From Telopea speciosissima (Eukaryota; Streptophyta; Magnoliopsida; Proteales; Proteaceae), in contig NC_057916.1 of the NCBI RefSeq assembly GCF_018873765.1, positions 50,780,540-50,844,539 on the forward strand: a DNA stretch of 64,000 nucleotides, in the 5' to 3' direction. A program made the position numbers and the translations under genes. Positions 6,387 to 60,487 of the stretch are shown one piece after another (the first letter of the stretch is position 1; every line of letters starts with the position of its first letter). The notes beneath the pieces are model-generated. The model was not told the origin of the DNA, did no database searches, and saw only the letters and a program-made list of their open reading frames with translations.

Positions 6387-6445
6387 ATTCTCTGGGCGAA
6401 ATCTCTGGGCATTAGGCACATCGCCCAGTGCACCGCCCAGAGAAT
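6387..6445. repeat. Inverted repeat ahead of Tekay-1 antisense gene
   Basis: Perfect 12-bp arms ATTCTCTGGGCG (6387-6398) and CGCCCAGAGAAT (6434-6445) enclose a second, shorter pair (TCTCTGGGC and GCCCAG). The same motif occurs in the Tekay-1 LTR at 10084-10123 and 11116-11155. It lies about 280 bp before the ATG of the antisense gene. Confidence 0.85.
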
Positions 6446-6726
6446 CGGGGCCCAGCCTATTTCAGTCTAAAACAGGTCATTTTCACCTCATTTGCTCTCT
6501 ATAGTCTTCCAAACACCCAGGGCAAATCTCCAAGGGCTTTTTCAACATCTCCCTTGCCAAAGCCACGTGTTTGCACGAGTCTTCCGTGCCCCCACGCCAT
6601 CCTAGGGTAAGTTTCTTGCGATTTTCTCTTGTTTTGGACTGTTGCCCACGGTTTTCACCCCTTTGGTTTGAAATTGCAAATTTTACTTGCCCTAATTCAC
6701 TTTTTATTCTTTCTTCTTGCAGGACC

Positions 6727-7957
6727 ATGTCCACAAGGCATAGTACGGCAAGGAAGTCAGTGGCACGCAAGAGGTTGCGGTCCAATCTCGAGCCTTTTTT
6801 GTCATCTTCTGTGCCACCAACCTCTCCGAGAGAGGATTCTTCCTCAGAGGAGCCAGACTTCGATCAATTTTGGTTTTCTAGGTACGTGCACTCTAGGGAT
6901 TGGTCCAACTTCAGTTCCAAGAACATAGTTAATGGGAGGATGGTATAGGTGGACGACTTCCACCAATATGGGTTGTATTCTAGGTTTAATATCCTAGGCT
7001 AGGCATCCATGTTGTTGCCCACCAAGCCATGTTACCCAAACATGGTTCGGTACTTCTATTGTAACCTTGTGCCATCTGGGGCACGAGAGTTCGGTTTGGA
7101 GAGTAGGGTGAAGGGTGTGGATATCAAACTCACCACTGCCATCTTGGCAGAGATCCTAGGGCTGCCTAACATAGGCGAGAGATGTTACTACAAGCCCAGG
7201 ATAGATATCTCAGATATGTTTTCCTTGGAGATCAAGAGGAGGGTCTTCAAGGCCTTGACCGGTTTAGAGAGGGTTCCTAAGTCTGAGGCTGACTATAAGC
7301 CTAGTGCTAGGATTATCAGTAGGTGTATCTCCTATAACATCTACCTGAAAGGCGGGAACCGGGGTAGTATCTCTATGTTGAGGGCTTACATCACCTACTG
7401 CCTATTGGGAGTGGGTAAGGGGGGTCCAATGATCAACCTCCCATAGCTACTGATGCAGGCTATGCTCTACCATGCTCAGAATCCTTCTGATGGAAACGTA
7501 CCTTATGGGAAGTTCCTAACCTTAGTGTTTCGACATTTTGATGTTCCCCTGGCGGAAGAGTACGTGGATAGGGATAGGTCTAGACCTATTAATAAGACCT
7601 CGATCATGAAGAAGAAGGTGCAAGGGGAGTTGGCTGGAGAGTGATCTAGAGGAGGGAGATGAGATAGAGTAGGAACAGGAGCAGGGAGTTGGCCTAGAGG
7701 AGTAGGGTGATGCAGAGGGATTTGGTACGCAGTTCGCTGATTTACCCTCCTATGAGGCAACTAGTGCTACGAGTTCACAGGTGCCAGAGTCCTATGGGTG
7801 GTCTGACATGACGTCACAGTTTCAGGGCCTCCACACTCAGCTTACAGAGATTTCTACGAGGATGGATCAGAGCTTCATGTCCCTTGAGGGGAGAGTAGGA
7901 TCCGTAGAGCGAAAGTTGGACTTCTGGGATACTTACTATCTCGTCGACTCACGATAG
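6727..7957 (+). pseudogene. Antisense extra gene of Tekay-1, putative plant transposon protein type
   Basis: An extra gene running opposite to gag-pol, between gag and the 5' LTR. It opens MSTRHSTARKS at 6727, after a predicted 5' UTR intron (donor GG|GTAAGT at 6607, acceptor TTGCAG at 6722). The conserved core runs from YPNMVRYFYCNL (about 7030) through VKGVDIKL, ILAEILGLP and PYGKFLTLVFRHFDV (about 7505). It matches the gene at 18270-19441 and the copia-B gene at 28314-29695. I assign the family known as putative plant transposon protein (Pfam Transposase_32, as I recall it). The C-terminus (about 7790-7950) looks like a coiled coil. Stops at about 6946, 7003, 7444 and 7642 and a frameshift before 7738 disable this copy. 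Its function is unknown. Confidence 0.75.
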
Positions 7958-8287
7958 ACTTAGCATCCACTGAGCGACATACCTCCTCAGGAGTAGCATT
8001 CCAGCTCGAGCTTCTTATGTTCAGCCTGACTTGATCTGATGTAGTTTTGACTTTTTTATCATGGTTTATGTAGTAGTTTTTTTTGTCAGCTTATGTATTT
8101 GGAAGTAGTACTTTCGGTTAAACTTTATGTAGTGGCTTCGACCATAGTTAACTCTTTATTAATGTAAATATGCATTCCATCTTTTACTTACATTTACCTC
8201 CCTGTGACTTTTCGTTAATTGCATGTTTTATTATTTGTAATTTATTATTCCTATTTTTTCATCTGTGTATGTAGAAAGAGCTTCAGA

Positions 8288-8299
8288 CTTTGATACCAA
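8288..8299 (-). other. Primer-binding site of Tekay-1
   Basis: On the minus strand TTGGTATCAAAG lies four bases inside the 5' LTR edge. It resembles the initiator methionine tRNA primer site TGGTATCAGAGC used by many plant LTR elements, with one change. Confidence 0.75.
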
Positions 8300-10083
8300 G
8301 CTCTGTCACACCCTAAACCACCCCTGGGAGGATTAGGTAGGTGATCCGAATTGCATGCCAGCACTCCGCCAAATCCCACGGATCTAGAAGCAGTTAATCC
8401 ATTCATAGACACACTTCCATAGTATTACCACAAGTAAACTCAGAGTGTTGCAAAGAAACTATATTTACATTGAAAGAAAAAAGAAGCGTAGCAGTATAGG
8501 AAATGATGATATATACATAAGTAAGTTTGATCATCCCCCACACATTCCTATAAATAAAATAGTAAGAACTAATATATACATCAGTTTAAATAAAAGAAAA
8601 TATATACAGGGCGAGGTAACTCAAACTCCAAAAATAAAGAGGAAAACTAAAAGCAAGAATGAGGATCAACCCCCAAAACAAAAAGCAGAATCAGCATTCA
8701 TGTCAACACCCATCACGGGTCAGTCCTCAGTAGTCACCAAGAACACTCGGACCATTGACACGACCTCTGTTGGGCTCCATACCAATATGATCATAACCAT
8801 CATGGCTCTCTTCCAGGTAATAAGCTTCCCCGCCACAGTGACATCAACCTATAAAATCATCTAATAGAAAAGCATATATAACAGAGTGTGAGGCCCACTG
8901 AGCCCGTGAATGAAACATCTCATCATGCATGCATTTGCAACCACAATCCATATGATCCTACATGATATGCAGGTCAAATTATTTATTAGCCACCAATAAA
9001 TACAACTAAGACAGGTTAGTGCTACTACAATCCCCAATACATGTATCCTTGGTGCGGGCTTTTAACCCCTTCCCCCGATACACCCATTGAGTTGTCGGAG
9101 AGGACCAATCAGCTCCCCCATTCGTTCACCAAGGTCAGCCCGACCAGCCCTCTGTGATTAACCTATAAGGCATCCGTCCCTTTTTCTCTTTTCTAGCTTA
9201 TAGCCCGACATATAGCTCATATTCACCATTCCGGTGCTAACATATTTCTTTTCTTTTCTTTTCTTTTCTCATAAATATACGGTCACTCCCATAGGCATCC
9301 AGCACCTTAACCCCTGTTGGCAAGGGTGCGTTGCACTAGTGTTGAAACTCTAACCCCATAAGTATATGGCATCGTATGAGTCAGGCGGTGTCAATCATAT
9401 CCCATTCTACGAGCTAGCATAGGCCTCATTTCCAAGCCGGCTACGGCATCTAGTCTAGCATTCACATTCAGTATAGATTATCAAACAGAATTGTCCAACA
9501 GTCAACACAGTTTTGTAATGGATTTATAAGATTTGAATTTAAACATGTATCACAATATCATTATTATAAGAATTTAATTTCAGAATATTATTTACGTTAC
9601 ATCTACATATGCGATGACATTCCACTCACCTTGGTCTGGTCCTATAGTATAAATCAAAATTGTGTTATTTAATATTCTAAACTATTTTTGAATGTCCTAG
9701 TGTTGATCTAGGCTCACTGGTTTGACTTGGTGCACAATATAGTATCACTTGGATATCTCTGGGTCTTGCACTGGGCTTTAGGTCTATGTCCCTGTGCATC
9801 ATCCAGAGAATGTGGTTCAGGTTCAGGTATGGTATCTTACCAATATAATGTATAGTACATGGTCCCTATAGTCTAACAGTACAATCCTTAGGTCAGCAGT
9901 GATGCTGGACCAACCTTGGCAAGGTTTCTAAGTCCTGTGGGGCTCACTTGGGTACCCAAGGTGTACATAATTATGGACAGCTGTGAGGAGGAGTATTTTG
10001 GTCATTTATCACATCCTTACACTATTCATGGTCCATTGGTGGAAGCCCCCAAAGTCAGATCTGCATATCAGCCCTTTTTAATT

Positions 10084-10123
10084 CTCTGGGCGATTCACTG
10101 GGTGATGTGTGCATCGCCCAGAG
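10084..10123. repeat. LTR copy of the Tekay-1 palindromic motif
   Basis: The arms CTCTGGGCGAT (10084-10094) and ATCGCCCAGAG (10113-10123) are perfect over 11 bp. The spacer is CACTGGGTGATG-like. It matches the inverted repeat at 6387-6445. Confidence 0.85.
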
Positions 10124-10890
10124 CCTGTTTAGAATGTGAACAGGCTCCAGATCTTAAGTTTTGCACCACAGGCAGTGCCATGGTCGATCCTTCATGCATG
10201 TTAGGTCATTGTGGATCCCATGAGGAGTGGTTTGCAGTGGTCCACTAGATCATGACTTGGGCACACCACTTGGCAGCCAGGAGCTGCCCAAACAGCCTAG
10301 GGAATAGTAACCCAGCTGTGTTCCAGCTTATGGCCATTATTTGGGCTGCATGCAGGGGTGATCCTACGTAAAATAGGGTGGTCTAAGGCTACTGCAACAT
10401 AGGGCTAGGCTGAGAGCAGCCTGTGTGTACAGATCCAAGCCTAGACTGCCTGTTCTTGGTGCAACAGTGCAGTGCAGTCTGGCACAAAGATGGATTTCGG
10501 TCTCAGGTGAACAATAGCAGCAAAAACACCTGAAAAATCCTCAGGTCTTCCATGCAATTTGTTTGCATGTTGGATGTGAGGCAGTACATGGCAGCCCCCA
10601 GGTGATCTGGGCTATCCATGACCAGAAATGCTTCGAAACAGTAGAGATCCATGGAGAAGAATAGTAATAGTAGTACAGCAGCATGTATAGGTATAGTTTT
10701 TATACTTGAACTTGGTTTGGCAAGCTGCTAGAGCTGAATGGGTGCTAAGGTATGTACTCTCTCCCTTCTTCTCCTTACTTTCTTCTTCTTCTCCTTCTTT
10801 TTTCCTCTCTTTTCTCTCTTCTTTCTCTCCCATGATTTGAACAGTAATAAAGGTTCTAAAATTAGGCTGGGAAAATTAGGCTGGGGTCCT

Positions 10891-10900
10891 CTATTTATAG
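10891..10900 (-). promoter_or_regulatory. Tekay-1 LTR TATA box
   Basis: The minus strand reads CTATAAATAG, a strong plant TATA box inside the 5' LTR in the element's direction. The palindrome at 11116-11155 lies about 215 bp upstream of it. Confidence 0.7.
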
Positions 10901-11115
10901 ACCAGCCCCAACTAGGGCCTGTTTGGCAGCCTAGGCCCACTGCTGAAATGCATTTTTGAAACTGATTCTGAGCCATTTTGGGCACTCTGGTGGTGTCCCA
11001 TAGGGGTCCACTGGTAATTTATGGTGCCCAATACTCCCATCTACCTCTAAAGGGTGCCCATGGTTAGTATGGGTGGTCCCCACACATCTGTTGATTAAAA
11101 TATTCAGTTTTACCA

Positions 11116-11155
11116 CTCTAGGCGATTCACTAGGTGATGTGTGCATCGCCCAGAG
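11116..11155. repeat. Second LTR copy of the Tekay-1 palindromic motif, upstream of TATA
   Basis: Arms CTCTAGGCGAT and ATCGCCCAGAG have one mismatch. The window begins inside the equivalent sequence of the left LTR, so both LTRs carry it. Confidence 0.8.
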
Positions 11156-11282
11156 AATACAACAAAGCTGTATCACATTGGGCTTGCATAGGGGTTTGGC
11201 CCAGGATTTGGACCTGACACCTACACCTCACCCAAGGTTAAATGCACCTATTTTTAGGTGTGGGCCCCACATTTATGGAGAG

Positions 11283-11692
11283 GAGAGAGATTATCTGGAG
11301 TCCAAGCTGTACATGATGTAATGTGTAATACAGTGGCATGGAGCTGCAATCCACCTTCTGGCAGGTATATAGGAGATCATTCCCAGTGGATCAGTTACTG
11401 GTGTGATGCACCACAGAGTGCTTGGAGGATTGGCCAGGGGTTCCTGTCCTTCACTCAAATTCCCAGCCAGTTAGGGGCAGGTTTGACTGAGAGAATACAT
11501 GGAGTCCAAGCTATACATTATGCAATGTGCAGTACAGTGGCATGGAGCTGCAATCCACCCTCTGGTAGGTATGTAGGAGATCATTCCCATTGGATCAGCA
11601 ACTGATGCGATGCTCAACAGAGTGTTTAGATGATTGACCAGGGTTTCCTGTTCTTCATTCAAATTCCCAGCCAGTCAGGGGCAGGTTTGACA
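11283..11692. repeat. 206-bp tandem duplication at the LTR end
   Basis: The segment from about 11283 to 11488 repeats, with changes, from about 11489 to 11692. Each unit holds the stretch from GAGAGA...GGAGTCCAAGC to GGGGCAGGTTTGAC. The left LTR (1-341) has one unit only. Confidence 0.85.
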
Positions 11693-16944: not shown

Positions 16945-17418
16945 GATTCAGCGCCTGACATAGATAAGATGCTTTACAAGTTAGCACAAGGACATGGGGT
17001 AGCCAATGCAAGGTAAGGGGCCTCAAGGAAACAAGCACACAATTTTTATTCGAGATACGTGTAGTAACACACAAGGGAAACTAAGGCCCTAAAAGTAAGG
17101 CTGAGCCAAAAATGTAGGCCAATAGCCCTTTAGAACGCAGACCGATTCTCTTTAAAGACATCGCCGGTGTCATCCCTAGGAGGGGAACGATTCTGATTGC
17201 AGGTGTTTACCATGATTCAGCGCCTGACATAGATAAGATGCTTTACAAGTTAGCACAAGGACATGGGGTAGCCAATGCAAGGTAAGGGGCCTCAAGGAAA
17301 CAAGCACACAATTTTTATTCGAGATACGTGTAGTAACACACAAGGGAAACTAAGGCCCTAAAAGTAAGGTTAAGCCAAAAATGTAGGCCAATAGCCCTTT
17401 AGAACGCAGACCGATTCA
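16881..17418. repeat. 269-bp tandem duplication covering the Tekay-2 gag start
   Basis: 16881-17149 and 17150-17418 are almost identical, each beginning CTTTAAAGACATCGCC. Each copy holds the gag ATG (16944 and 17213) and about 20 codons. Confidence 0.9.
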
Positions 17419-17692
17419 CGGATGGAATTAGTCCTCTAACTCTGTTCGTGACTCCGTCGCCGAAATAGGCTGGACGGACTAATGGTCAGATTTGGAATAT
17501 GAATCCGTTCGTGCATCCGTTCTCAGGGTGCCCATTTTGGCCAAAAGACCAAGCCCTATGAAACTACAGATGGATCCTAGGTTATGGTTCCGTTCATTGT
17601 TCCGTGCAATTTTAAGAATGAAAACTTAAGTTTTTAAGCTCGACGAATTCACGGACAGAATCACGATAGTGGATCCATTCGTGCGTCCGTTC
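17416..17692. repeat. Motif cluster ahead of Tekay-2 antisense gene
   Basis: About four copies of a 40-bp unit lie here, with ACGGA(C/T) on one side and GTCCGT or ATCCGT on the other; the best is ACGGACAGAA...GTGCGTCCGT at 17651-17690. Very similar units occur in the Tekay-2 LTR at 21309-21585 and 22321-22375. The cluster precedes the spliced leader of the gene at 18270. Confidence 0.8.
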
Positions 17693-18269
17693 AAAAATTT
17701 TCATAAGAATACCAACCGCGTGTTTCAAACTCATTTTGGCTTGTTAGAAGAGAATGGAGGCACATAGCAGGGGAGCCCTAGCATCATCCGTTCAAAGTTT
17801 CTACACCCTAGATTGGTGGATTCAAGCCTTCCTCTACCAAGATCAAGTTTCTCATCCACAGGTAGGTGATTTTACCTCCATTTGGAATGCTTAGGGTTTG
17901 TTCTAGACCTTTTCTAGTGTTCTTGGTTGGATTTTTCTTCTCCTTCTTCCTTTTTACTGTGTTAGGTTGTTTGAAAAGTATTGGAACATTGTTTTTTTCT
18001 TTGATTATTTGCTTTCAAATTCAAGAATGAACATGCCTTTTCATTCCTACACCTATCGATTAGGGCTAGGGTTGGTTAAACCCTTCCCAAAACCGAAAAC
18101 TCTAACTATTTTTGGGGCAAATGAAATTCATACTAGGAATAGGTTCTAATTCTTCTTACAATTCATTTGTTGAGTTGCTGTGATTTATATATAATCTTTA
18201 TATTCTTATTGAAGTTACCAAATACATGTAGTGTCTTTGTATTGCTTGTGTGTAGGCAACTAGAGTGGA

Positions 18270-19441
18270 ATGGCTCCCAAAACAAGGGGAAGCAGGGCTC
18301 CTATAACAGCAACAACACCAGCACATTATGATGCCATTTTGTTTGTGTCTGCTGAGGCAGAGAGGCTATATACTGAAAAGTTTCATGATAGAAAGATTTT
18401 AGTGGGGAGGGAAGCTATCCTAGATGAGTTGATTGCCTTCAAGGTGGGGGAGAGGATCGATAGGTTGGGTGGTTCAGCATGTTATCTCCACCCAAGTTCT
18501 ACTATCATAGGTTGATTAAGCACTTTTACTCCAACCTGTCAATTACTCAGGAGGACCGGACTAGGCTTCGGCTTAACTCCTTTGTGAAGGGAGTGAAAAT
18601 TCCTTTTAATGAAGTAGAGTTGTGGGACATATTAGGAATAAGCTCTATTGGAGATCGTGTCTACCACCCACCAGGGAGAGATCTACTCTCCTATGTGTCC
18701 AAGACAAAGTACCAGCACCTGTATTCCACCTTGACCAATCAGAAGTACTAGTACCGGATGAATCAGACCGAGTTTGGTAAATCGCAGAGGATCTTGACTA
18801 TGCTGTCCAAGACCAACCTTGTTCCCATCAAGGGTCACAACACTGAGCCCTCACTCATGGCTGCAGCCCTAGGTTACTACCTGCATCAAGGCATTCAGGT
18901 GTGTCTACCCTATATCGTTATCAGACACATGGAGCAAGATCTATTCAAGTCCAGGAATAAGAAAACCCTGCCCTACAGGAGATTTCTCACCCGCATCTTC
19001 GAGCAGTTCCAGGTCAACCTGGAGGATGAACCCCCACCAAAGAGCTTTGAGGAGCCACTCGGGCACAATTCCCTGGCCCAGATGTGTATCAAGTGTGATA
19101 AATTCAGTGATGGAGAGCTAGTTGACCCTGAGGGGGATGGGGGTGAGGAGGAGAGCGATGATTATGAGGAGGAAGCACCAGTACAGTTCTCTGCTGGAGC
19201 TTCTAGTTCTGGGCCCTCTGACATGAGTGCAGTCCTAGATGCCCTTGGTCAGCTGAACACCAACATGACCAAGCTCAACTCCAACATGGTGCAGGGGTTC
19301 GAAGGGATACAGGGAGAGTTTGCTTCATATGACCGCCGCTTCGAGAGGATAGAGAAGGACATCCACGACATCAATGCCTATCTATACTACGGAGGCAACG
19401 ATGAAGAGGATGAGGACAACGATGAGGAGATGGGGGACTAG
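18270..19441 (+). pseudogene. Antisense extra gene of Tekay-2, putative plant transposon protein type
   Basis: The gene opens MAPKTRGSRAP at 18270 after a predicted 394-bp leader intron (donor CACAG|GTAGGT at 17862, acceptor GTGTAG at 18255). The core holds YHRLIKHFYSNL, FVKGVKIPF, LWDILGISSIGD and LPYRRFLTRIFEQFQVNL, matching the genes at 6727 and 28314. The C-terminal third (about 19225-19440) has a likely coiled coil (VLDALGQLNTNMTKLNSNM) and an acidic tail. Full length would be about 390 residues. Only one frameshift (about 18480-18515) and one stop (18752) break it, so it is the best preserved of the three. It runs opposite to gag-pol between gag and the 5' LTR. Biochemical role unknown. 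Confidence 0.75.
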
Positions 19442-19877: not shown

Positions 19878-19890
19878 CTCTCTGATACTA
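19878..19890 (-). other. Primer-binding site of Tekay-2, degenerate
   Basis: The minus strand reads TAGTATCAGAGAG three bases inside the LTR edge. It is close to the initiator methionine tRNA site TGGTATCAGAGC. Confidence 0.6.
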
Positions 19891-21308
19891 TGCTGTCACG
19901 CCCCCATCCCAAGCTTAGGAACAAGCACAGTCAAGAGGGTGACTGGGAAGACACTCATCATCCCATATCCTACCAGGATCAATGACACAGTGTCCCAATC
20001 CATAGTCAACAACCAAGGACAACATAAATAATTACAATTTATAGGAGGGAAGGAATATTCCATTCAAAACAGAATAAATGCAAGCAGAAGCAATATAAAT
20101 AGCAGTTACTATATGTTCAGCTGGCTAGGTGATATAATAATAGTTTAACACTGTTTACTGACTAACCATGACATAACTACTCAAAAGAATATAAAGTTAA
20201 TTATAGACAAATGTTCATAATGGGCACAAAGCCCCAAAAGAATTAAAAGAGGGGATTATCCCCAACAACATCACGGCCCGTAGGCACAATCATCACAGGG
20301 GTAGCCATCGTCGTGTTCTTCCGACACAGCCTCAGGTTCCTCCCTGCCAATACCATCATAATCTATCGGTTGGGCCTCTAGACCAGCCAGATATCCACCA
20401 CGTGCATCAAAATCTAAAAAGGTGTGTACACAGGGGGTTAACTCCACTGAGCCACTAAGGGGAAGGGGAATGCACAAACACACAATCACATATAGTCCAT
20501 GATGAATGTAATGTTAAATAGATTTTCCACCTAACAAACAATCTAAGTCAGAGTATATGCTACTATGATAACTCGGGAGACACTGTGGGTCACTTAACTT
20601 ATAGCCACAATGAAACCTCAGTTATCAACTGGGAGCCTACGCCGGTAGAAGCCATCTAACCATCCAGTGGCAGATCCCGATGATCAGTGGTCATCCCTGA
20701 CCTAGCATCTCTCCCCCACAGGCAATAAGGAGCCCCAATCACCCAACACCTAAACCCCTGTTGGTAAGGATCATAGCATGGGAGGGTGAATCCTAGCCGC
20801 AGATATACTACATGCAAGTTCTATCATCCCAAGAGTTATTTTGGGTACATTAACGTCCCATTCCATGTAGTACCCGGGTACTAGCAAGGCACGGCACATA
20901 CAGACCAGGATGGCAATCAATAATCTCATAAGCATTTTTGGGGTCCCAATACCGGCATACCCGGCACCATAACCCGATATAATAATATAAAGTAAACATA
21001 TTCACATTGCATCAATTCGTAACCAACATAGTTTATATGCAAGGATGCAACATGTTAAGAATGGATGCAAGTATAAGCACAATTATGTGATTTATATAGT
21101 TATATAAATAACAAGCCCAAACATCACCCAAAACCCACTCACAGTTTGTTTGCTTGTTGCTCGGGGTATTTGTTAAGATTTGCCTTGGTGCTCGCATTCC
21201 CGTATAAGTTACGAAGTCTGAGGATGCATGAGAATAAAGTTAGAAGTGCATAGATGGGTCCCATGAGGGGTCCCAACAATTAATGTGAAGTTTGAGTCAA
21301 GACAACAT

Positions 21309-21585
21309 GAACGGACGCAGGGATGGAGGCAACCAGGTGAGTCCGTTCTTGGCTCCGTCCAAGTATTCAGTGAAAATATATGGGACAGATTCACGGATGG
21401 AACTTCCAAGTGAATCCATTTGTGCATCTGTCCGAACCATGAGACATTCCCGAGAGCAAATGGATCAACGGATAGAGCTTCCAAGTGAATCCAGTCATGC
21501 ATCTGTTTGGACCCTGAGACATTCCCAAGAGCGAACGAATCAATAGACAGAACCACGATGATGGATCCGTTCGTGCGTCCGTCGA
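21309..21585. repeat. Tekay-2 private motif array in the LTR
   Basis: Four units of about 45 bp alternate ACGGA- and -TCCGT ends around variable centres. The last unit (about 21546-21583) is nearly identical to 17653-17690 in the antisense-gene leader. Confidence 0.8.
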
Positions 21586-22320
21586 ACCTCTCTTAGAGAT
21601 TTAGGAGGAAATCCTTCTCCAGCCTTTCATCCATGAGACCATAGGGGTCTTAGGGTTAGGGAGGTGAGTCCCAGGCTTTGTTAGGGTCCAAGATACCTAG
21701 CCCTATATGGGTCTTAGAAGCTTTTAAGGGATTGGAGCCCTCTCCAGGGTTTCCCAAACCTAGGTTTAGGTCTTAAGGCATCGAGTAGTAGCTCATGCCG
21801 TTAAAGCCATGAAGGCAGTAAGGGAGATGGAATGTAGGTCTCAAATTAGGAATTAAAGAAGGTTATTGGGTCTCCAATAGGAAACCCTAAGCTAGGAATC
21901 GATCCCAAGATGATCCCAAAGTTTGAAATGGAAAAGAGAGGGAGAAGAGGAGAGTATTCACCTTAAAGATGAGCCAATGAATGGCTTCCACCTCCACAGC
22001 TCTCTTCCAATCTCCTTCTTTAATGCCTTCAAAGCTCTCCAAGCTTCCACGGTTTTGGGTAGGTAGGAGAAGTGAAAAAGCCATAAATGGCTGGGCTCTG
22101 CTTTTATAACTAATACCCCACTTAGGGCCTGTTTGGCTTGGGGCTTTAAGAGTTAAAACTCATTTAAATGCCAACTCAGGCAAGTGGGTCCACCTATATA
22201 GCACACACACAATTCAATGAGACCAAGGGTGGGGTCCACCTTATCTAGGTGCTTAGGTAGGATGCCGGGGGCATGGGGTGTGGGTCTCACATGAGGAAAA
22301 CACCCAAAATCCTAAAATAG

Positions 22321-22375
22321 TATGGATGGATTAACGGACAGAAGAAGTCTTGTGAGTCCATTCATGCGTCCGTTG
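22321..22375. repeat. Tekay-2 private motif upstream of LTR TATA box
   Basis: One unit with ACGGACAGAAG and ATGCGTCCGT ends, about 215 bp upstream (in element direction) of the TATA box at 22101-22110. Confidence 0.75.
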
Positions 22376-22856
22376 CTGTTGTAAAGGATAGAACCCTAAG
22401 GAAATTTATTAGGCTTTGGCCCACACTTCAAGGCCAACAAGGGGAGGGTCTACTAACATCATAAGGGCAGTATCTTACCCCTCAACCATCACGACGTGTC
22501 CTTTGTGATTCCAAAGAGTTTTCCAATCGCGATGCTAAGCTCATCGCCGAAATAGGTGTCTAAGTGTGGGGACACAGGAAACGCCTTCCGGTACTCTTCA
22601 CTCTGGGGACTGATGCTAGGAGGATGGTCGATGAAATCACCGTCAATAAATCTCCCCCAGTGCCGATTGAGGAACCTCTCTTCCACAGGCAAGTCTGTGA
22701 ACTGGTCAAAAATTTTATGGCTAGGTTTGACCACAAGTGAAAATAGCTCACCAGCGTACATGGCAATAGAATCTACACGTCATAAGAGAGAGAAACTATA
22801 ATTAAATGGCAAATCTGGGCACGGATGAAACATGATGAAATTTCCACTCTAGTTGG

Positions 22857-26138: not shown

Positions 26139-26757
26139 AAGTCGCCACTGTGGGTTCCGCAATCTATCCCAGAGGAAAAGAGGTCCTACATCCTCAGGAG
26201 GTGGTCATTTTGTGACCCTTTGCTTGATATTGAATTCATTATTTAGATTCATCGTTGAGAATGAGGAAACAGAGTTATGCTTCATATAAATTAAAGAAAC
26301 AGGAGTCGCCACCTAGGGTTTGGGCCTAGGACCCAATAAGTGGTAGCCTAATTCTTCAGGAATGGAAAGGGCTACTTGATTCCATATGGTCTAGTCAAAG
26401 AGTCTGGGTAAGCGATCAGGTTATAAGGATGGGAAGGTATTAACACCCCACCTCAATCGGTTATACCAGTCTTTCCACTAGATGTTAGTTGTCGAATATT
26501 CTCCCATAATGATAAGTAGTTCTATAACCAACATGCAAGCCTAAAAATTAAATGTGATAATTGCAGAATAAAAGTGATCATGGTATCCTAAATTATTATG
26601 TACACTAAAACAAATTACTTTGATTATCTACATTATGCTCAAATAAAAGGAAAGGTGAAAATGTATACTTGCACGCAAAACTGACGATTATTGAAAATAC
26701 GGGATGTAGGATGTCCCCCTTGCACAGGTGGAGATAGATGATTGTCTTACCTCTCTT
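26139..26757 (-). mobile_element. Tat-lineage LTR remnant with primer site, minus strand
   Basis: The minus strand reads CACAG|TGGCGACTTC at 26139-26150, the TGGCGACTC-type primer site of Tat elements, with LTR sequence to its right. The LTR also carries CCTAGGTGGCGACTCC near 26320-26335, as the Tat-A LTR does at 44458-44473. Copia-B cuts it near 26758. Its internal part is not in the window. Confidence 0.65.
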
Positions 26758-28077
26758 TGGTTAGGAAAAGTTTTAAATTCACCTAGAGGGGGGTGAATAG
26801 TTGAAACTTGTAGGTAATAAATCTTTTACGAAATTATAAGTTATTAATATAAATTAAAATAATTGCACAAATAACACAAAGATTTTATAGTGGTTTGGCC
26901 AAATCTTGCCTACATCCACTTCTCTCTAATTTAGAAAAAATTCCACTAATTAAAACAATCTTGATAGAGAGCAAGAAGACTCTTATACAACTCTTGATTC
27001 CGAGCAAGAAGACTCAACCAATCTTGATTCCAAGCAAGAGGACTTAAACAACTCTTGATTCCGAGTAAGAGGACTCAACCAATCATAAATAACTACTAAG
27101 TAAAAGTGTTACCTCAACCTTAGTAGAAGTATGTGTTACCTTCCAACTTTAAAGCTTGAAGTATGATGTGGTGGAGGAGCTTGAGTGTGTGAGCTTATGA
27201 TAAATGAATACTTGTGATCAATGTATGCTCACTTGAGACTATGGCACTTAGAATGACAGAGCTTATGATGTTGTCTCTTAGTAGTAGTGATAGATGGCTT
27301 TTGAGCTTGAGCAAAGAACCTATTTATAGACTTGAAAGCTCAAACCTATAGTGAGCTATTTTTTTGAATTCGGATTCAAAAATAGCACCAATTCAGTTTA
27401 CCGATTCCAATTCAGTATACCAATTTGCCAAAATCACATAAGAATATAGCTGTTGATCCAACGGTCAGATTTTCTACTTCGGTATATTGGATCATGATCC
27501 AATATTCCGGATCCAATACGAAGCAAGCTGTTTGCACTCAAGAAAATCATGTATGAGGTTTATACAGAACTGGTATGCCGTTTCTGGATTTGGTATGTTG
27601 AATCAGCATTTTTGCTGAAAAGGTTTGAGTCCCATGGTGAACTGACTTAGGGCGATTCCACTGATCTTGGCCATATGGAATGGGTTCAAATAAACCTTCT
27701 AAGGTCATTCTAGCATGCGTGTGTGTGTGCATTACATCAATTTGTGACCTAAGAACAAATTCATAAATTAATACAAATTTAGTCTTCAATACACTTCAAG
27801 TCTTGAGCTCCATTGCTTCGCTTGAGTATTTGTCTTTATGATGTGTTCTTCTTACTTCATGATTATTTGGTGTCTTGAAAGCTTGGGGACTATGGCTTCA
27901 ATTGCTTTGATCATCAATCTCTTGAATTGAGTGTTCCCTCTCACTTGGTGCCATGCTCTTATATAGGGATTCTATGCATCTCAAACAAGAGTATAATTTG
28001 GTTTATTTGTTATCATAAAAAATTTGATATCATCACAGTGAATGATGGAGTTTGTGTGTGAGGACTTTCCTTCAACA
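26758..28077 (-). mobile_element. Copia-B 3' LTR
   Basis: The right edge is fixed by the purine tract: minus strand AAAAAGGGGGAGAT|TGTTGAAGG at 28077/28078. The left edge at 26758 (TGGTTAGGAA) is my best estimate. It holds short tandem repeats (about 26960-27085), a TATA box at 27321-27330 (minus, TCTATAAATA) and a 22-bp palindrome at 27484-27505. Confidence 0.7.
27484..27505. repeat. 22-bp perfect palindrome in copia-B LTR
   Basis: The half-site is ATATTGGATCA followed by its exact reverse complement. It lies about 155 bp upstream of the LTR TATA box in element direction. Related GGTATA/TTGGAT phrases flank it at about 27380-27420 and 27570-27605. Confidence 0.9.
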
Positions 28078-28091
28078 ATCTCCCCCTTTTT
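28078..28091 (-). other. Copia-B polypurine tract
   Basis: The minus strand reads AAAAAGGGGGAGAT directly before the LTR. It is preceded by TTTGTCATCATC-like sequence common in plant copia elements. Confidence 0.85.
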
Positions 28092-28313
28092 GATGATGAC
28101 AAATACTAACCAATAATAATGCAATTTGTAAAAAAAAATTGTTTCAATACATGACATCAATTGCATAAAAACATAAATTTAAATTCATTGCATAAGAGTT
28201 TCAATACATAACATCAATTGCATAAATTTAAATTCATTGCATAAGAAAAACAACTACATCTTCTCTCTCCCCCTTTGGCATTATCAAAAAGCGAGGTGGA
28301 ATAAGTACACATT

Positions 28314-29695: not shown

Positions 29696-29696
29696 T

Positions 29697-38878: not shown

Positions 38879-39766
38879 ACCTCGATTTATGTGCCAAAAG
38901 ACACTTAGGGTAGTGTTCGATGGCCTCGCTTTGATTTACGTGTCACTAGGTGCCTAGGATGGTATCTAGAGGCATTACCAAGATTTGCATGCCAAAAGAC
39001 ACTTAGGGTAGTGTCTGATGGCATCACTTTGATTTGTGTGTCACTAGGTGCCTAGGATGGTATCTAGAGGCGTTACCTCAATTTACGTGCCAAAAGACAC
39101 TTAGGGTAGTGTTTGATGGCATCGCTTTGATTTGTGTGTCACTAGGTGCCTAGGATGATATCTAGAGGCGTTATCTCGATTTGCATGCCAAAAGACACTT
39201 AAGGTATTGTCCGATGGCCTCGCTTTGATTTGCATGTCACTAGGTGCCTAGGATGGTATCTAGAGGCATTACCTAGATTTGCATGCCAAAAGACACTTAG
39301 GGTAGTGTCTGATGGCATCATTTAGATTTGTGTGTCACTAGGTGCCTGGGATGGTATCTAGAGGCGTTACCTAGATTTGCATGCCAAAAGACACTTAGGG
39401 TAGTGTTTGATGGCCTCGCTTTAATTTGTATGTCACTAGGTGCCTAGGATGGTATCTAGAGGCGTTACCTCGATTTGCATGCCAAAAGACACTTAGGGTA
39501 ATGTCCGATGGCCTCGCTTTGATTTATGTGTCACTAGGTGCCTAGGATGGTATCTAGAGGCGTTACCTCGATTTACATGCCAAAAGACACTTAGGGTAAT
39601 GTTTGATGGCCTCGCTTTGATTTATGTGTCACTAAGTGCCTAGGATGGTATCTAGAGGCGTTACCTCGATTTGCATGCCACAAGACACTTAAGATAGTGT
39701 CTGATGGCATCACTTTGATTTGCGTGTCATTAAGTGCTTGGGGCAAAATCTAGGGACGTTACCTCG
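38879..39766. repeat. 98-bp minisatellite in PMD intron 1, about 9 copies
   Basis: Units repeat every 98 bp (for example 38879, 38977, 39075). Each holds two related halves of about 49 bp: one with GCCAAAAGACACTTAGGGT, the other with GTCACTAGGTGCCTAGGAT, both opening GATTTG. It makes up most of intron 1 (38792-39846). Confidence 0.9.
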
Positions 39767-40093
39767 AATCTATGCGATGAGGTATGAAGCTAATAATATA
39801 ACAAATAAAATGCATAAATTGAAAGGTAAAGAGTAAGACTACTGACCTGGCCCCATATGGAGCGGCAACCATGGCGGGCAGTGTCGACTAAGGTGACCCC
39901 TGAAGGGTACCATGCAGCTCATGCGTCACGAACAGTAGTGCCAAGTAATGGCTCCCTGTGGGACTGGCGTCCGCGTCGACGAAAAGACATGATGAGAGAA
40001 GGAGGGTGAACAAAAAAAAATGGAAGTCAAAAAAATCAAAAAGGCAGGGCTTCGCAGCAAAAAATGGCAATAGAGAGTAAGGTGAGGGCACTT

Positions 40094-40248
40094 CTATTTA
40101 TAAAAAATGCTATCATGCCCACAGCACCGTGGAGATCTCCACGGCGCCGTGGAAGTTCCTCCTCGGAACCGTGGGATTTGGCACGGAGCCGTGCAAGCAC
40201 GGTGCCGCCCATACACAGTGCCGTGCAGGCCCCCACATGGCGCCGTGG
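40094..40248 (-). promoter_or_regulatory. Promoter of antisense PMD gene: TATA box and palindrome array
   Basis: On the minus strand TATAAATAG (40102-40094) lies about 104 bp before the PMD ATG. Just upstream, 40122-40248 holds seven versions of the palindrome CCACGGCGCCGTGG; the copy at 40139-40152 is perfect. The same motif sits upstream of the TATA box in the Tat-A LTR (43577-43688). Confidence 0.8.
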
Positions 40249-43383: not shown

Positions 43384-43397
43384 AAAGAGGGGTAAAC
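43384..43397 (+). other. Tat-A polypurine tract
   Basis: AAAGAGGGGTAAAC lies immediately before the TG of the 3' LTR. It shows that the PMD gene and the tandem repeats are inside Tat-A, not beside it. Confidence 0.8.
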
Positions 43398-44623
43398 TGT
43401 AGATACTGATTTTTGCCACCCCCTAATTGGCGATGATGACAATGGGACATGGACGATGGACGATGCACTCTCCCTCTTTCTAGATCCAAGATACCTGACC
43501 CATAAGACCAAGAACCATGTTGAGCACAAAATGACCCATTTTAGGCCCAAAAACAAGAAAAAATGGCACTGCGCCCCCACGGCGCCATGGGGATGTGTAC
43601 CGGATTGCCACGGAGCCATGAGAGGATGTGACATCAGCTTACTGACCTCACACACGGCACCGTGGAAAAATCCCCCACGAAGCCGTGGAGGACTTATCTG
43701 GCCAGGAGAGAGAGGGGGTCCCTCCCTATAAATAGGAGGGTCCCCTCCCACATTTTCAAAGGAAATTTTGGGTAGAGAGACCCTCCCCAAGTGATTTCCA
43801 TCCTCTTTGTCTCATTTCTTTCACCCTCTTTTCTCTCCTTTCTCTTATGAGAGTGTGAGTGAGTGAAATTTTCTTGGTCGTGGATAGATCCTTCGATTAT
43901 CCCTTCGAGCATAGAGCGCTCCTGCTCCTAGCCATTGTTATCCCATCAGTGCACGGATAACCATCAAAACCCCTTTAGTTCAGATGTTATTTTGTCTGTT
44001 TTTCTCATCTCCAAATCATTTGAAAGAGCCTTTGCTCTGCCCAGAAAGAATCGGCGTCCGTATGTTCGTCTATCTCCCCTGAGCCAGGGGAATACAGCCA
44101 TACAGGTATAATTACGACATTCTTGTTGATTCAATGTAGTCCTTTCGTATTTCATTATTTTAGTCCCTTTTTTTTCGGATATGTAATGTAGTTTATTATG
44201 CTTTAGTTCAATTCATAGCATCTGAGTGTAATTCATAATATCCCCCATCCCCGTAATAAAAGAGAGAGAACATTCATCTTTATATAACATCTAATACAGA
44301 GAGACCAGCTTCGGCCAGGCGAGGTGGGTGCCTAACACCTTCCCACACTCGTAACTTGACCCCTTACCCGAACCTTTGGTCAGACCATATGGAGTCTTGT
44401 AGCCCGATTCTGCTCACAACGGATAGGGCTACACTCAATGGGTCCTAGGCCCTAACCCTAGGTGGCGACTTCACATTATTTTAGCATATTTTAATGCACG
44501 ATCCCAACCCCCCATTTATCCATATCATACATTGACAATATTATCCATATATATATCCATACATCCAAACCCTTGTCGCCATAAGGCTGGGGAACCCTCG
44601 TCTCGAGGACCACGATACTTACA
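43398..44623 (+). mobile_element. Tat-A 3' LTR
   Basis: It starts TGTAGATACTGATTTTTGCC, a typical Tat LTR opening. It carries CCTAGGTGGCGACTTC at 44458-44473, also seen in the LTR remnant at 26139-26757. The right edge is approximate, since a Tekay fragment abuts it near 44624. Confidence 0.75.
43577..43735 (+). promoter_or_regulatory. Tat-A LTR promoter: palindrome array and TATA box
   Basis: Four versions of CCACGGCGCCGTGG lie at 43577-43590, 43608-43621, 43652-43665 and 43675-43688, followed 39 bp later by TATAAATAG (43727-43735). The layout mirrors the PMD promoter at 40094-40248. Confidence 0.8.
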
Positions 44624-48350: not shown

Positions 48351-48352
48351 GA

Positions 48353-55968: not shown

Positions 55969-56050
55969 AGTAGAAGCAGCAGTACCACCAGTAGTAATAG
56001 TAGTAGTAGTAGCAGTAACAACAGTGGCAGTAGCGTAGTAGTAGTAGATG
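55965..56050. repeat. Trinucleotide microsatellite
   Basis: An imperfect (AGT/AGC)n run directly after the Tat-B integrase. Confidence 0.85.
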
Positions 56051-56159
56051 CATTATAGTTTGCATTACAGTTTTCAAGGATAATTTGAAATTTTATTTGA
56101 AGTAAATAGTTGATTTCGGATATACTCGTCTACTTCTATTACTCAATCGAATCACTTCC

Positions 56160-56432: not shown

Positions 56433-56661
56433 GAGGTCCGAGAGCTATTAAAGCAATAGGTCACCAAGATTAAAACAACTACTGAAGACGATAGACACAC
56501 ACATCAACCATAAGGAACGGTACGACGAAGAAGATAAGAAGTTAACTACTTATAACAAGAGAAGGAGGTCACAGTAATCACATAGTTCGGAGTTCACAAG
56601 TTCAACATGCCATATGCCCAAAAAGTCAAGAAACCTCCACTAAGGGAGTCACATCCTCCTC

Positions 56662-58778
56662 TTAAGGGGAAGCCATCTCAAAATCAGGAGGGGGTGCCAT
56701 GACCTCCTCCACAGGAGCAGTACCCTCATCAGGCTGGGCGACGCCCTCCTCAGGCACCACAGTGCTCTCTCCCACAGGGACATCAGTGGCCATAATAGTA
56801 ATTGAGGTCAGTACCGCAACACCTGTAAACCGCGAGAAGTCATAACTAGGGGTCTCCTCAAGAACGTAGGCGGCCAAGTCTTGGATCCCCTGTATTGTAT
56901 ATCCCTTGGTTCTCCTTGTAGAACCAATCCATGAGCTTCAAAGACTGCTGGTACTCCGCCACAGCTCGCTTGCCAGACTCGGCTAACTCCACCTCATGAC
57001 CCTGCCTCACATCTCGAAGCTCCTCCTCCAAGGCACGGATCCAGGATGAACTCTCAGCCTCCATAGTCACGCTCCAGGAAGACATAGCCTTGAGCTTCTC
57101 AGCCATCCTCCTCACTCGAATGGTGGCCTCCTCTAGGGTGACTCGGTGCTCCTGGAGCTCCCTCTCCATACTGCATAGCTTGTGAACCTGCTGGATCTCC
57201 TAGAACACTTTCTGCTCAAGACGAAGTACCGCCTCAGTGGTGCGATGTTGAACCTGTGAACAACAAGAACATCAGAAACCCATCACATAATGACAGTGAA
57301 AATAAAAAAAGGGGGAAGAGATCCGACTCACCGAAGCCATGTCCTGATAAAGAGCATGCACCAGAACCGAGTCACTCATCCCCTGAAAGGCTGTACACTC
57401 AGTAGGAAGCCTCCCCAGATCCAACCATTCCTGAGGCACACCCGGGCATGTCAAGGCGCACCCTCCTGAAGCTCCCAAGGAAGCACGAGAGTGGATGGGG
57501 TAGGCAGATCAGCAGTCGATGGTGGCAGTGGATCAGCGAACGTACCGACGAAAGAAGCCACTCCCTGCGTGGTAGTAGGAGGAAGAATGGAAGATCTCGG
57601 AGCATCAACAGCCGACCGTGGTTTTAGGAGGATAATCCGCGGACCACTCCTCGTAGTACTGGGCGCATCAGGACCCCCTTTTCGCTTGACACCAGCGGCT
57701 ATAGTAGAGGAAGGTCTAGAGGCTGCCGAAACACTCCCACCAGAAGATGAACCACCCTGAGCGGCCCTCTTCCGCAGGTTAGCACGGAAGATATTGATAT
57801 CCGGGCGAAGGTCCACTGCACAACAATACCCAAGGAAGACATTAGATAAAAACCAACGGCAAAGGCAGTAAGAGAAAGATACAAGCATAAAGATCAAGTA
57901 CAGAAGACAATAATCTTACCAGGACTCAGCTTCCATAGGAATAGGAAGGCCTCCGAGTCCAGCTCCTAGACGTTGAATGGATCACGTCCCAGACATCGCT
58001 TGAGGGAGTCGCCCTCAAAGTCACTCAACTCAAGGTTGTGATTGACCCTCTTGGGGTCGATAACCTCCCAAGTAGTCCGTAATGAACATCGGGGGATCGT
58101 AGCAAAAAAGAAGAGATCCCTCCAATACTTCACTGAACTAGTGGTCCCCTCGAGGAGCTCCAAAGTAGCATAGGGTCCCTTGAGGACGCGACGAGCAAAG
58201 TGATAACATCCACCGTCCCCCTTCTTCAACAGGTAAAAATACGAGAACAGGGGAACGGTGGCAGCATGCCCCATACGGGTGAAGTACACATAAAAGCCCA
58301 AAATAACCCTCCAGGAATTGGGCAATACCTACCCGGGGGTGAGGTGCCAGTGCTCTAACACTAACTCGACAAAATGGGGAACAGGAAAGCGAAGACCCTG
58401 GGAGAAGAAAATGCGGTAGAGACAGATCTTGTCCACTCGATGAGAGAAGGCATAATTGTCGGGTTCGGGAATACGAAGCATGACATCAGAAGGAATGTGG
58501 AACTCCTGGCGAAGGGAGACCAAATCTGAAGGGGTCAGGACACTGACAACATGACCTGACCTACTAGCAGGGCCAGCGACCGTAGGTGCCGCCCCAGAAG
58601 ACCTAGGACCTCTACCAAGACTAGGGGCGTTGGAAGGTCCCACTTCCCCATCACTAGCTGTAGGGGAAGGCACTGAAGAGGGGGTGGCCGCAGTAGAAGG
58701 CGACTCCGAGGAAGGTTCCTCAGAGGATCCAACCACGACCGTGGCAGGATCAGAGTCACTAGAGGATGACATGAACAA
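56662..58778 (-). pseudogene. Antisense Transposase_28-type gene of Tat-B, three exons
   Basis: Predicted exons (minus): 58778-57920, 57815-57332 and 57253-56662, with GT/AG ends. Exon 1 opens MFMSSSSDSDPATVV. It holds the core LVSLRQEFHIPSDVMLRIPE, LRFPVPHFVELVLEHWHL, LPNSWRVILGFYVYF and SSVKYWRDLFFF. That pattern matches the putative gypsy-type transposon family (Pfam Transposase_28, as I recall). Exon 2 is Ser/Pro-rich. Exon 3 is a coiled coil (MERELQEHRVTLEEATIRVRR) with an acidic tail. Stops at about 58331 and 57961 and frame changes in exons 2 and 3 disable it. It lies between pol and the 3' LTR, opposite to the element. Confidence 0.75.
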
Positions 58779-58918
58779 TAGTGGGATAGATTACTTACTT
58801 AGAGAGTGATCTCCCCCAAAGGCAAGAGGCTGACATAAGAAGGAAGAAGACAAGCTGCAGCAGTTAACCAACAAATCCATGAGAGAGATGGAAAAAAAAA
58901 AAATTCACCTGAAATGGA

Positions 58919-59330
58919 TAGGCGGGGGCGACCTCAAGCAGGCGCGGCCTCTAACGGGCACGACCTCAACTGGGCGCCACCCATAGGCGTGGCCTCCACA
59001 TGACCCTAGGTGCGGCCCCCAACAATGCGACCCCAGGCACGGCCTCCAATACGGCACGGCCCTGGGTGCGTTCTCAAATCCCAGGCATGACCTTGAGTGG
59101 GGGAACAGGTACGGCCCCGGGTGCGGCCTCTGGTGTAGACACAGACGGGCGTGACCTCTAGCGTGGATGCAGATGGGCGCGGCCTCGGGCACGACCCAAA
59201 CCCAGACCCGGACCGGTGGGGTAGGCACAAACTTGGACGGGGCGCGACCTCAAACAGATGCGGGCAAGGAGTGTGACCACGACGGGCGCGACGAGCAAGC
59301 CACGAGCCACGAGCACAAGCACTAAAGCCA
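58919..59330. repeat. GGCGCGGCCTC motif array ahead of Tat-B antisense gene
   Basis: About 15 degenerate copies of a GGCGCGGCCTC motif spaced 15-40 bp, GC-rich against an AT-rich background. They lie 140-550 bp upstream of the antisense ATG (58778). The same motif fills 59818-59968 in the 3' LTR. A minus-strand CCTATAAAT at about 59633-59641 could be the TATA box, which would place the array in the RNA leader. Confidence 0.8.
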
Positions 59331-59720
59331 ATCCACCAAGCCTCAAACAAGAGCCAATGGCCAAGCAAAAACAAGAGAGCTATCCTTAGCCATCAAAGAA
59401 CAAACACTTGGGGGGCACAAAAAACAAGAGCCAAATGCAAGGAAGTGACAAGGTTAAAAAAAGTGAAAAGCAAAAAGCAAAAAGGAGATGATGAGAAGAA
59501 GGGAAAAGTGAAAAAGAAAAAGAGAAGAAAGGAGATATATACATCTAAAAAAAAAAAAAAAAAAAAAAAGAGAAGAACAAAAACTATAGGAGGAGAGGTC
59601 TGAACCTACAACCTCCCCCACCTCCCTAGAAGATTTATAGGCACGCCCCTCTAGAGAAGCTTATTCACGACAAACCCCTCACTACATGAATGCATTACTC
59701 TCTTGAACACTCTGTTCCAA

Positions 59721-59736
59721 GAGAGTAGGGGGCAAA
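59721..59736 (+). other. Tat-B polypurine tract
   Basis: GAGAGTAGGGGGCAAA lies directly before the TGATGAACCC that opens the 3' LTR. Confidence 0.85.
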
Positions 59737-60487
59737 TGATGAACCCAAGATCATACAGACCAACCATGAGCGGCCATGTGTCCCGGTCTGAAGGGAGAGC
59801 CAGCTTAGACACGATCCACGGGTGCGGCCTCCAGGCGTAGCCTCCACAGGCTCTAGGCGCAACCTCCATAGGCGTGGCCTCATAGGCGCTGCCTCCTTGG
59901 GTGTGGCCTCTCACAGGCGCGGCCTCCCACTGGCGCGGCCTCTCTTGGGCGCTGCCTCCTCGCTAGGCACGGGCTCATCAAGTTCTACGTCATGTCATAG
60001 ATATGACCCACGCGGACGTTGTGGCACCTAGCCTGTGATCCAGTCATCAATATAGACATACGCCATCTCCAGGACTCTAGGCCACCGCCTAGAAGTCACG
60101 TCACCCAGACGGACTCAAACACCAAAGGTGTTATTACTACACACACAGGTGTCTATCTATCAAGGATCCCAACACCGCTGGGATACTCCCTTCCGCAGGG
60201 AGACGGCCAACCAAGGAAGAGCCCTGCTACCCAGGGTCTCTATCCACTACATGGATCACTCGCCATCAAACTGGGACTCTCCACACCGCCATACTCCGCT
60301 ATAAAAAGGAAGGTATGCTACTCCATTAACCATCTTGAATTCTATTCACTTGTCTGTTTGCTCAGAGAGATCTAACTTGGGCATCGGAGAGTCCTAGGCC
60401 GGAACCACACCGGCTCTCCTTTGTCACCCAGGTTCTTTTGCAGGTTACGATACTCGAAGGAACACTGAACGATTTCCTGACGCAACA
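59737..60487 (+). mobile_element. Tat-B 3' LTR, 751 bp
   Basis: It runs from TGATGAACCC to GACGCAACA; its last 283 bases match the truncated 5' LTR. It contains the GGCGCGGCCTC array (59818-59968) and the TATA box TATAAAAA (60300-60307). The next bases, CATGG, would be the target duplication, but the 5' partner is lost. Confidence 0.9.

Follow-up and report, generated by a model that had tools for sequence, protein, structure and literature searches.

The window analysed here, a 64-kb stretch of the genome of Telopea speciosissima (contig NC_057916.1, positions 50,780,540 to 50,844,539), consists of nested plant long terminal repeat (LTR) elements, and four of these, the Ty3/gypsy elements Tekay-1, Tekay-2, Tat-A and Tat-B, each carry an extra gene antisense to gag-pol, as in the class of plant Ty3/gypsy elements with extra or antisense open reading frames (eORFs/aORFs). 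In each of the four, a short motif private to the element occurs both in its LTR and upstream of its antisense gene. What can be read directly from the sequences is that the sites are shared, how they are spaced, that they are private and recur in relatives, and that in one family the motif has shifted jointly in the two promoters. Based on these observations, it can be hypothesized that the product of each antisense gene binds DNA and regulates both the promoter of that gene and the LTR of the same element, a reading to which we assign a probability of roughly 0.55; private half-site arrays in two promoters that track the divergence of the families are what a family-specific DNA-binding protein would need.

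The four motif pairs that had been reported in an initial annotation of the window were all found at the positions given there, and comprise the following sites:

6387-6445: Tekay-1, module of four half-sites (CTCTGGGCGAT; gaps between starts 13, 17 and 12) upstream of the antisense Transposase_32 (T32) gene
11116-11155: Tekay-1, LTR module, 217-256 bp upstream of the LTR TATA box
10084-10123: Tekay-1, LTR module downstream of the TATA box
9771-9811: Tekay-1, degenerate third LTR module
17410-17695: Tekay-2, array of TCCRTTCRTGCRTCCGT dimers upstream of the antisense T32 gene
22322-22380: Tekay-2, LTR module, about 225-265 bp upstream of the LTR TATA box
21304-21589: Tekay-2, LTR array downstream of the TATA box
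40119-40248: Tat-A, palindromes (CCACGGCGCCGTGG) 17-146 bp upstream of the TATA box of the antisense PMD gene (40102, minus strand)
43577-43688: Tat-A, LTR palindromes about 40-150 bp upstream of the LTR TATA box
58925-59251, plus strand: Tat-B, direct-repeat array (GGCGCGGCCTC) upstream of the ATG (58772) of the antisense Transposase_28 (T28) gene
59821-59976, plus strand: Tat-B, LTR direct-repeat array, 324-479 bp upstream of the LTR TATA box

The spacing of the half-sites is nearly fixed between the LTR and the antisense-promoter contexts. In Tekay-1 the gaps between half-site core starts are 13, 15 and 12 in the antisense promoter versus 12 and 15 in two LTR modules, and in Tekay-2 pairs of half-sites 12 bp apart are found on the antisense side (17499/17511 and 17669/17681) as well as in the LTR (21561/21573 and 22352/22364); by our own reading of the matches, three modules have the opposite half-site 19 bp away from the first one, and others 18 bp. 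Relative to the aligned TATA boxes, the upstream LTR sites of Tekay-1 and Tekay-2 are similarly placed (217 and 225 bp) but differ in their letters, and the Tat-A palindromes are near and upstream of both TATA boxes. The original description of the motif, as usually palindromic and placed upstream of the LTR TATA box, holds in part: the upstream sites are there, but the Tekay LTRs also have sites downstream of the chosen TATA box, and the Tat-B motif is a direct repeat. Moreover, within the window the palindrome score alone does not mark these promoters, the exceptional feature being the sharing. By eye, CG-to-TG and CG-to-CA changes are frequent among the variants in the Tat-B arrays (58925-59976), the pattern that old methylated cytosines would leave.

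The sharing was evaluated with a motif-agnostic test in which the 400-500 bp upstream of each antisense gene were locally aligned to the element's own LTR, and the comparison excluded any segment that touched a solo LTR, the stretch under test or a known fragment of the element's LTR. The best own-LTR match was reached by no other internal segment (0/135 in Tekay-1, 0/131 in Tekay-2, 0/164 in Tat-A and 0/151 in Tat-B) and by 0, 0, 1 and 0 dinucleotide shuffles per 1000, respectively. Segments of the 64 kb outside the element reached it in 0/519, 0/520, 5/485 and 0/525 cases, and the three of the five Tat-A cases that are listed coincide with the conserved end that another Tat-like LTR has near 26.3 kb; the summed alignment score of the antisense-upstream stretch was equalled by no segment. 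When each of the four upstream stretches was compared with each of the four LTRs (with slightly wider LTR limits), the row maximum fell on the diagonal in 4/4 and the cross-matches were weaker, in agreement with the earlier claim that the motif is private to each element family, which the relatives described below bear out.

Counts of the motifs themselves point in the same direction. With up to three mismatches, TCCRTTCRTGCRTCCGT has 13 matches in the 64 kb, all in the two promoter regions of Tekay-2 (expected 0.28), this 17-base dimer occurring five times upstream of the antisense gene and eight times in the LTR, and GTGCATCGCCCAGAGAAT has five matches, all in Tekay-1 (expected 0.06); both patterns were picked after inspection of the sequence, a choice from which the alignment test is free. 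For the Tat-A palindrome (at most three mismatches) 9/10 matches in the window, and for the Tat-B repeat (at most two mismatches) 20/25, lie in the LTR and the sites upstream of the PMD and T28 genes, respectively. When the 64 kb was scanned against itself for matches of up to 150 bp (E<=0.002), with nine known homologous pairs and four tandem arrays set aside, 41 short matches were retained, several of them these motif pairs and many others coding or LTR-end homology, low-complexity sequence or local repeats. Shared k-mers gave a less uniform picture: for k=7 the antisense-upstream value was reached by 21/136 segments in Tekay-1, 0/131 in Tekay-2, 27/158 in Tat-A and 7/151 in Tat-B, and for k=9 by 4, 0, 0 and 0, so that only Tekay-2 stands out with the former and all except Tekay-1 with the latter. 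The k-mer count was considered too noisy and the local-alignment test was taken instead.

Relatives were collected from the same genome (823 Mb), and 21 were read as sequence: 12 of the Tekay-2 kind, six of the Tekay-1 kind and three of the Tat-B kind. The Tekay-2 relatives were picked for their spread of identity, which for the T32 protein is 57-83% among the matches listed (150 of 5042 candidates), the window's own copy aside. Shared arrays are present in 6/6 of those having both promoters (L023, L024, L028, L029, L031 and L032), with the shared block of L031 lying beyond the LTR part that maps to Tekay-2 and three further dimers inside the mapped part. The six others have lost one region by insertion or deletion according to BLAST maps, the LTR being interrupted in L022, L026, L030 and L033 and the antisense upstream region gone in L025 and L027; the surviving region holds at least three dimers in five of them and one dimer in L030. 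In the Tekay-1 kind (150 listed of 5391 candidates), read as two short stretches per relative, half-site modules occur at both places in 6/6, with 2-4 upstream half-sites and 3-5 LTR half-sites (at most two mismatches), lying on both strands and with module gaps mostly of 12-13 and 16-18, while the shuffled stretches gave two half-site matches in total. The Tekay-1-like LTRs of L001, L022, L026 and L030 also retain at least two half-sites. In the Tat-B kind (150 listed of 2683) arrays are found at both offsets in 3/3 relatives, the LTR start having been checked, by eye, in L046.

The Tat-A kind was compared by coordinates and not by letters, using six PMD matches among those listed, on contig 1 below 45.6 Mb. 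An exact palindrome lies 1.0-3.1 kb upstream of 5/6 of these and none within 6 kb downstream, the expectation for random positions being 0.24%. The exact CCACGGCGCCGTGG occurs 1467 times genome-wide and its reversed control 0 times; the first 50 occurrences include several pairs separated by about 140-160 bp. That relatives keep the motif is supported by 6/6 of the Tekay-1 kind, 6/6 of the Tekay-2 kind with both promoters, 3/3 of the Tat-B kind and, by the coordinates of the upstream palindrome, 5/6 PMD matches; an antisense gene kept beside an uninterrupted LTR lacking the motif, the case that the initial annotation had singled out as contrary, was found in 0/21 of the relatives read.

The motifs are also largely private among relatives. 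The Tekay-2 dimer (at most two mismatches) occurs once in 12 stretches from Tekay-1 relatives, and the six Tekay-2 relatives with both promoters have 3-5 dimers upstream, 0 in the T32 gene and 3-8 in the LTR, together with 0 Tekay-1 half-sites upstream and 0-2 in the LTR. In 200 kb of other stretches the background was eight Tekay-2 dimers, 16 Tekay-1 half-sites, 0 Tat-A palindromes and one Tat-B repeat. Twenty 10-kb stretches anchored on reverse transcriptase (RT), used as background, contained no T32, PMD or T28 relative at E<=1e-3; one of them, L007, holds the Tekay-2-like LTR considered below.

Within the Tekay-2 kind the motif shifts in both places with the divergence of the T32 protein. 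Position 5 is T in 29/36 upstream and 45/56 LTR sites of relatives with at least 71% protein identity, a group that includes the window copy, and in 12/41 upstream and 10/43 LTR sites of relatives with at most 68% (Fisher's exact test, 9e-6 upstream and 1.5e-8 in the LTR); the counts were summed by hand, excluding the interrupted or lost regions (the LTRs of L022, L026, L030 and L033 and the upstream regions of L025 and L027). The suggestion that protein and site evolve together fits this joint shift, but a stricter test pairing each locus's own upstream motif with its own LTR motif gave 0.054 (seven loci, 5040 permutations). Sites within an array are not independent and the split is effectively that of one clade. 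For these reasons co-evolution of protein and site in the Tekay-2 kind is indicated by the sequences and not proved.

In the mechanism that we propose, the antisense gene, of the T32, PMD or T28 family, would be expressed from its own promoter and yield a putatively nuclear, sequence-specific DNA-binding protein. This protein would bind the element-specific half-site arrays, of nearly fixed geometry, upstream of its own gene, amounting to autoregulation, and the same arrays in the U3 region of its own LTR, amounting to control of gag-pol transcription. Protein and site would diverge together, with the consequence that related families would stop cross-regulating one another. That the antisense protein is the binder, and that it affects transcription or silencing, is what we infer from the arrangement of the sites.

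Several observations, besides the non-independence of the sites and the pairing value just mentioned, weigh against this proposal. The array upstream of the antisense gene can be aligned with the LTR array over 240-315 bp, at 58-61% identity with the spacers counted in, in four Tekay-2 relatives (L023, L024, L028 and L032), so that an old duplication of the array is possible. Among the six PMD matches, the sixth has no exact palindrome within 6 kb upstream, and exact palindromes at both the promoter and the LTR distance are found in only 1/6. The Tat-A palindrome also lies 6.6-6.9 kb upstream of 2/6 listed T28 matches (contig 1 below 45.6 Mb; G000:C1:40587408-40587767 and G000:C1:43944749-43945108), a coincidence that perhaps arises through nesting. 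A Tekay-2-like LTR elsewhere in the genome (L007:4626-7266) has its own palindromic array of other letters (GGTTT half-sites, 12 bp apart by eye), and no T32 gene was detected in that stretch. Lastly, the predicted structure of a PMD protein encoded in the sense direction was uninformative (pLDDT, the predicted local distance difference test score, of 34).

The same site evidence would be produced if the antisense protein were a repressor or copy-number governor that occupies the two promoters and turns the element off, its own gene being subject to negative feedback, and the position of the Tat-A sites, close to both TATA boxes, would fit autorepression combined with repression of the LTR. 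A purely self-limiting gene would, however, be less obviously retained in families so large (5042 and 5391 first-look candidates, unverified), and we regard this alternative as unlikely, activation or anti-silencing being weakly favoured over repression. Host factors generally drive plant LTRs, and the shared motif might reflect a common need of the two places, both of them promoters, for one host transcription factor. This seems improbable, since each family within the one genome has a different motif, Tekay-1 and Tekay-2 differing even where their LTR sites occupy the same position, and since the composites, about 40 bp long and with an almost constant spacing of half-sites, drift jointly in both places within a family.

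Two further alternatives dispense with a private DNA-binding protein. A piece of the LTR promoter might have been copied to the antisense gene and kept alike by gene conversion, which would explain why the shared pieces are blocks of 40-50 bp or longer in Tekay-1 and Tekay-2, as well as the long array alignments in four Tekay-2 relatives. Only a small probability is given to it: the Tekay-1 match ends at the module, Tat-A shares 14-bp palindromes only, the LTR array of L046 (Tat-B kind) has a steady period of about 18 bp that its antisense array lacks, the shared state persists across many diverged relatives, and a duplicated array could still be bound. Alternatively, the palindromes might act in the genomic RNA, where they would fold into hairpins to which Gag, or an accessory protein that binds RNA, attaches for packaging, dimerization or evasion of silencing. 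Unusually good folding of the Tekay-1 modules (z -3.2 to -6.0) and of Tat-A (z -3.5 to -4.0) would fit such a role, as would the structural resemblance of the maize and sorghum Tekay aORF proteins to a double-stranded-RNA-binding-motif protein, described in the accessible part of one report (PMC11728184). Tekay-2 (z -2.3 to +0.7) and Tat-B (z +0.5 and +0.9), in contrast, have little or no fold signal, and RNA hairpins are for this reason rejected as a general explanation and rank as the least probable of the alternatives.

The proposed family-specific regulators find their closest parallel in the VANC proteins of the VANDAL transposons of Arabidopsis, which bind private motifs and demethylate (PMC5735166); this and the following comparisons draw on those parts of the cited papers that were available. 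Like VANDALs, the elements described here encode a protein family and have arrays of a short private motif in their own non-coding DNA, and in VANDALs, too, related families differ in motif (YAGTATTAY versus AGTTGTCC/AGTTGTAC; PMC5735166). Unlike VANDALs, which are Mutator-like DNA transposons, the carriers here are LTR elements with LTRs and polypurine tracts (PPTs), their arrays occupy the LTR and the region preceding the antisense gene, and binding and demethylation, demonstrated for VANC, are here predicted at most. VANC contains DUF1985/DUF287, in place of which T32, PMD or T28 antisense genes are found here: nine pieces of the window compared with Pfam at E<=10 gave T32, PMD/DUF7745, T28 and a few weak chance matches and no DUF1985/DUF287, with the qualification that the HMMER filters drop most Pfam matches above 0.1. 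Since domains and element class differ, these elements would work like the VANDAL/VANC system without being members of it. It is possible, albeit doubtful, that unrelated LTR lineages convergently built a VANC-like self-recognition, in which an antisense gene, from any of three or more protein families, would encode an anti-silencing activator. Such an activator would recognise rapidly changing, family-specific sites in the LTR and in the promoter of its own gene, and each family would lift silencing from itself alone.

Antisense genes of these families are already known in plant LTR elements, as is, from VANC, element-encoded sequence-specific anti-silencing. The product of gene23 of maize Grande is nuclear and the gene has its own promoter (PMC7264820), DNA binding has been predicted and a regulatory role suggested for TRP28 of Retand (PMC11963269), and 57% of Ogre elements were reported to contain PMD and 23% of Retand elements T28 (PMC6317226). 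One report, which pointed to VANC, left open a role of aORF proteins in shaping methylation (PMC12844716). These genes and the Tekay 5' aORF resemble those of the window in their overlapping gene families and places (PMC7264820, PMC11963269, PMC6317226, PMC11728184), but differ in that, within the available parts of the sources, neither a target site nor a motif shared with the LTR is reported for them. In sunflower, as far as the accessible source goes, the Tekay 5' aORF is listed as ORF(+) with no known domain and the T32 match is in an Athila element. A literature search, which left subscription papers largely outside its coverage, returned no report of a private motif common to the LTR and the antisense promoter in LTR elements.

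HBZ is an antisense regulator of human T-cell leukemia virus (HTLV), whose antisense genes are mentioned in two reports (PMC7264820, PMC11963269). The likeness to the reading proposed here is an antisense gene proposed to regulate transcription of the element; in HTLV, according to the part of the report available, the antisense promoter is inside the 3' LTR (PMC7264820), whereas here the antisense gene has its own promoter with the private sites of the LTR. Among host proteins, the PMD proteins MAIN and MAIL1 act on gene expression and transposon silencing, and a promoter motif is enriched among genes with decreased expression in the mutants (PMC7156037, available in part). They differ in being encoded by host genes.

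Antisense genes are present in many plant Ty3/gypsy elements, and the shared private site provides a concrete candidate target for binding by their products and predicts which elements can control one another. If these proteins de-silence, sequence-specific anti-silencing would no longer be confined to one group of DNA transposons but would include LTR retrotransposons, which account for a major share of plant genomes, and the proteins would offer a collection of new DNA-binding specificities.

The antisense genes of the four elements are located as follows:

6727-7446, plus strand: Tekay-1 antisense T32 gene (candidate ATG 6727, domain in 7003-7446), interrupted near 6948 in this copy
18752-19441, plus strand: Tekay-2 antisense T32 gene, C-terminal part, open frame
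38450-39990, minus strand: Tat-A antisense PMD gene, 5' part (candidate ATG 39990, PMD in 38450-38935, own TATA box at 40102 on the minus strand)
57966-58772, minus strand: Tat-B antisense T28 gene, N-terminal part (ATG 58772, weak Pfam match)

In both Tekay elements the T32 gene lies between the LTR and gag, and in 4/4 elements the antisense gene adjoins the array outside the LTR. The Pfam E-values are 4.5e-9 and 1.2e-5 for Transposase_32, 3e-12 for PMD and 0.0035 for Transposase_28, of which the PMD match is above the curated cut-off of Pfam and the T32 and T28 matches are below it. Relatives of the antisense genes are abundant in the genome, and many among the matches listed have long open frames; first-look candidates, unverified, number 5042 for Tekay-2 T32, 5391 for Tekay-1 T32, 3173 for PMD and 2683 for T28, with 150 scored matches listed for each. 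One query against a protein database gave 212 candidates, 0 at E<=0.001, no relatives were found among viral contigs, and a sequence comparison with solved structures likewise gave none that was meaningful. The region of the antisense PMD gene also contains, right after the integrase, another PMD/DUF7745-like gene, which is encoded in the sense direction (33638-34507). In addition, a 98-bp tandem repeat of about nine copies (38873-39737) overlaps the frame that encodes the PMD domain of the antisense gene, at its upstream end.

LTR ends, PPTs and TATA boxes are consistent with each other in the four elements, and the LTRs, with their putative primer-binding sites (PBSs) or PPTs, are:

about 8304-11692, minus strand: Tekay-1 5' LTR (PBS-like 8287-8298, TATA 10899)
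19891-22832, minus strand: Tekay-2 5' LTR (PBS-like 19879-19890, TATA 22108)
43398 to about 44475 (right end approximate), plus strand: Tat-A 3' LTR (PPT-like 43384-43397, TATA 43727; start taken as 43399 in the computations)
59737-60487, plus strand: Tat-B 3' LTR (PPT-like sequence directly upstream, TATA 60300)

The inner boundary of the Tekay-1 5' LTR was set from the remainder of its 3' LTR, in the stretch L001 immediately to the left of the window. Of the three TATA-like matches in each of the Tekay LTRs, the one that corresponds between Tekay-1 and Tekay-2 when the two LTRs are aligned was used. On the plus strand, Tat-A runs from the antisense PMD gene through a tandem-repeat region and the PPT to the 3' LTR, and Tat-B from gag-pol through the antisense T28 gene and the PPT to the 3' LTR. 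With Pfam, both gag and RT were detected in Tat-B, gag also in Tekay-1 and RT also in the Tat-A region, the Tekay RT being recognised by eye only. The names Tekay and Tat are those of the initial annotation, and their support consists of the domains, the appearance of PBS and PPT and the published association with PMD and T28.

Three 1.7-kb repeats (35274, 40764 and 49020) were considered as LTRs of the Tekay or Tat elements and dropped; with their TG...CA ends and 5-bp duplications, judged by eye and with a mismatch in one of the three pairs, they are solo LTRs nested in these elements. A purine run at 35184 was likewise dropped as a PPT because it is inside an apparent intron (by eye) of the antisense PMD gene. 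A fifth element, at 26304-29700 on the minus strand, has a Tat-like LTR end with a TATA box at 27328 and a 30-bp palindrome (27480-27509) upstream of it; a gene with a T32 domain adjoins (29231-29458), its upstream region apparently cut off near 29700 (by eye). Beside the Tekay-1 3' LTR, L001:4488-5171 is a Tekay-1-like LTR (75% identical) with a complete module of four half-sites. This flank is not the remainder of the 3' LTR of Tekay-2, and the nesting is accordingly less simple than the junction at 11692 suggests.

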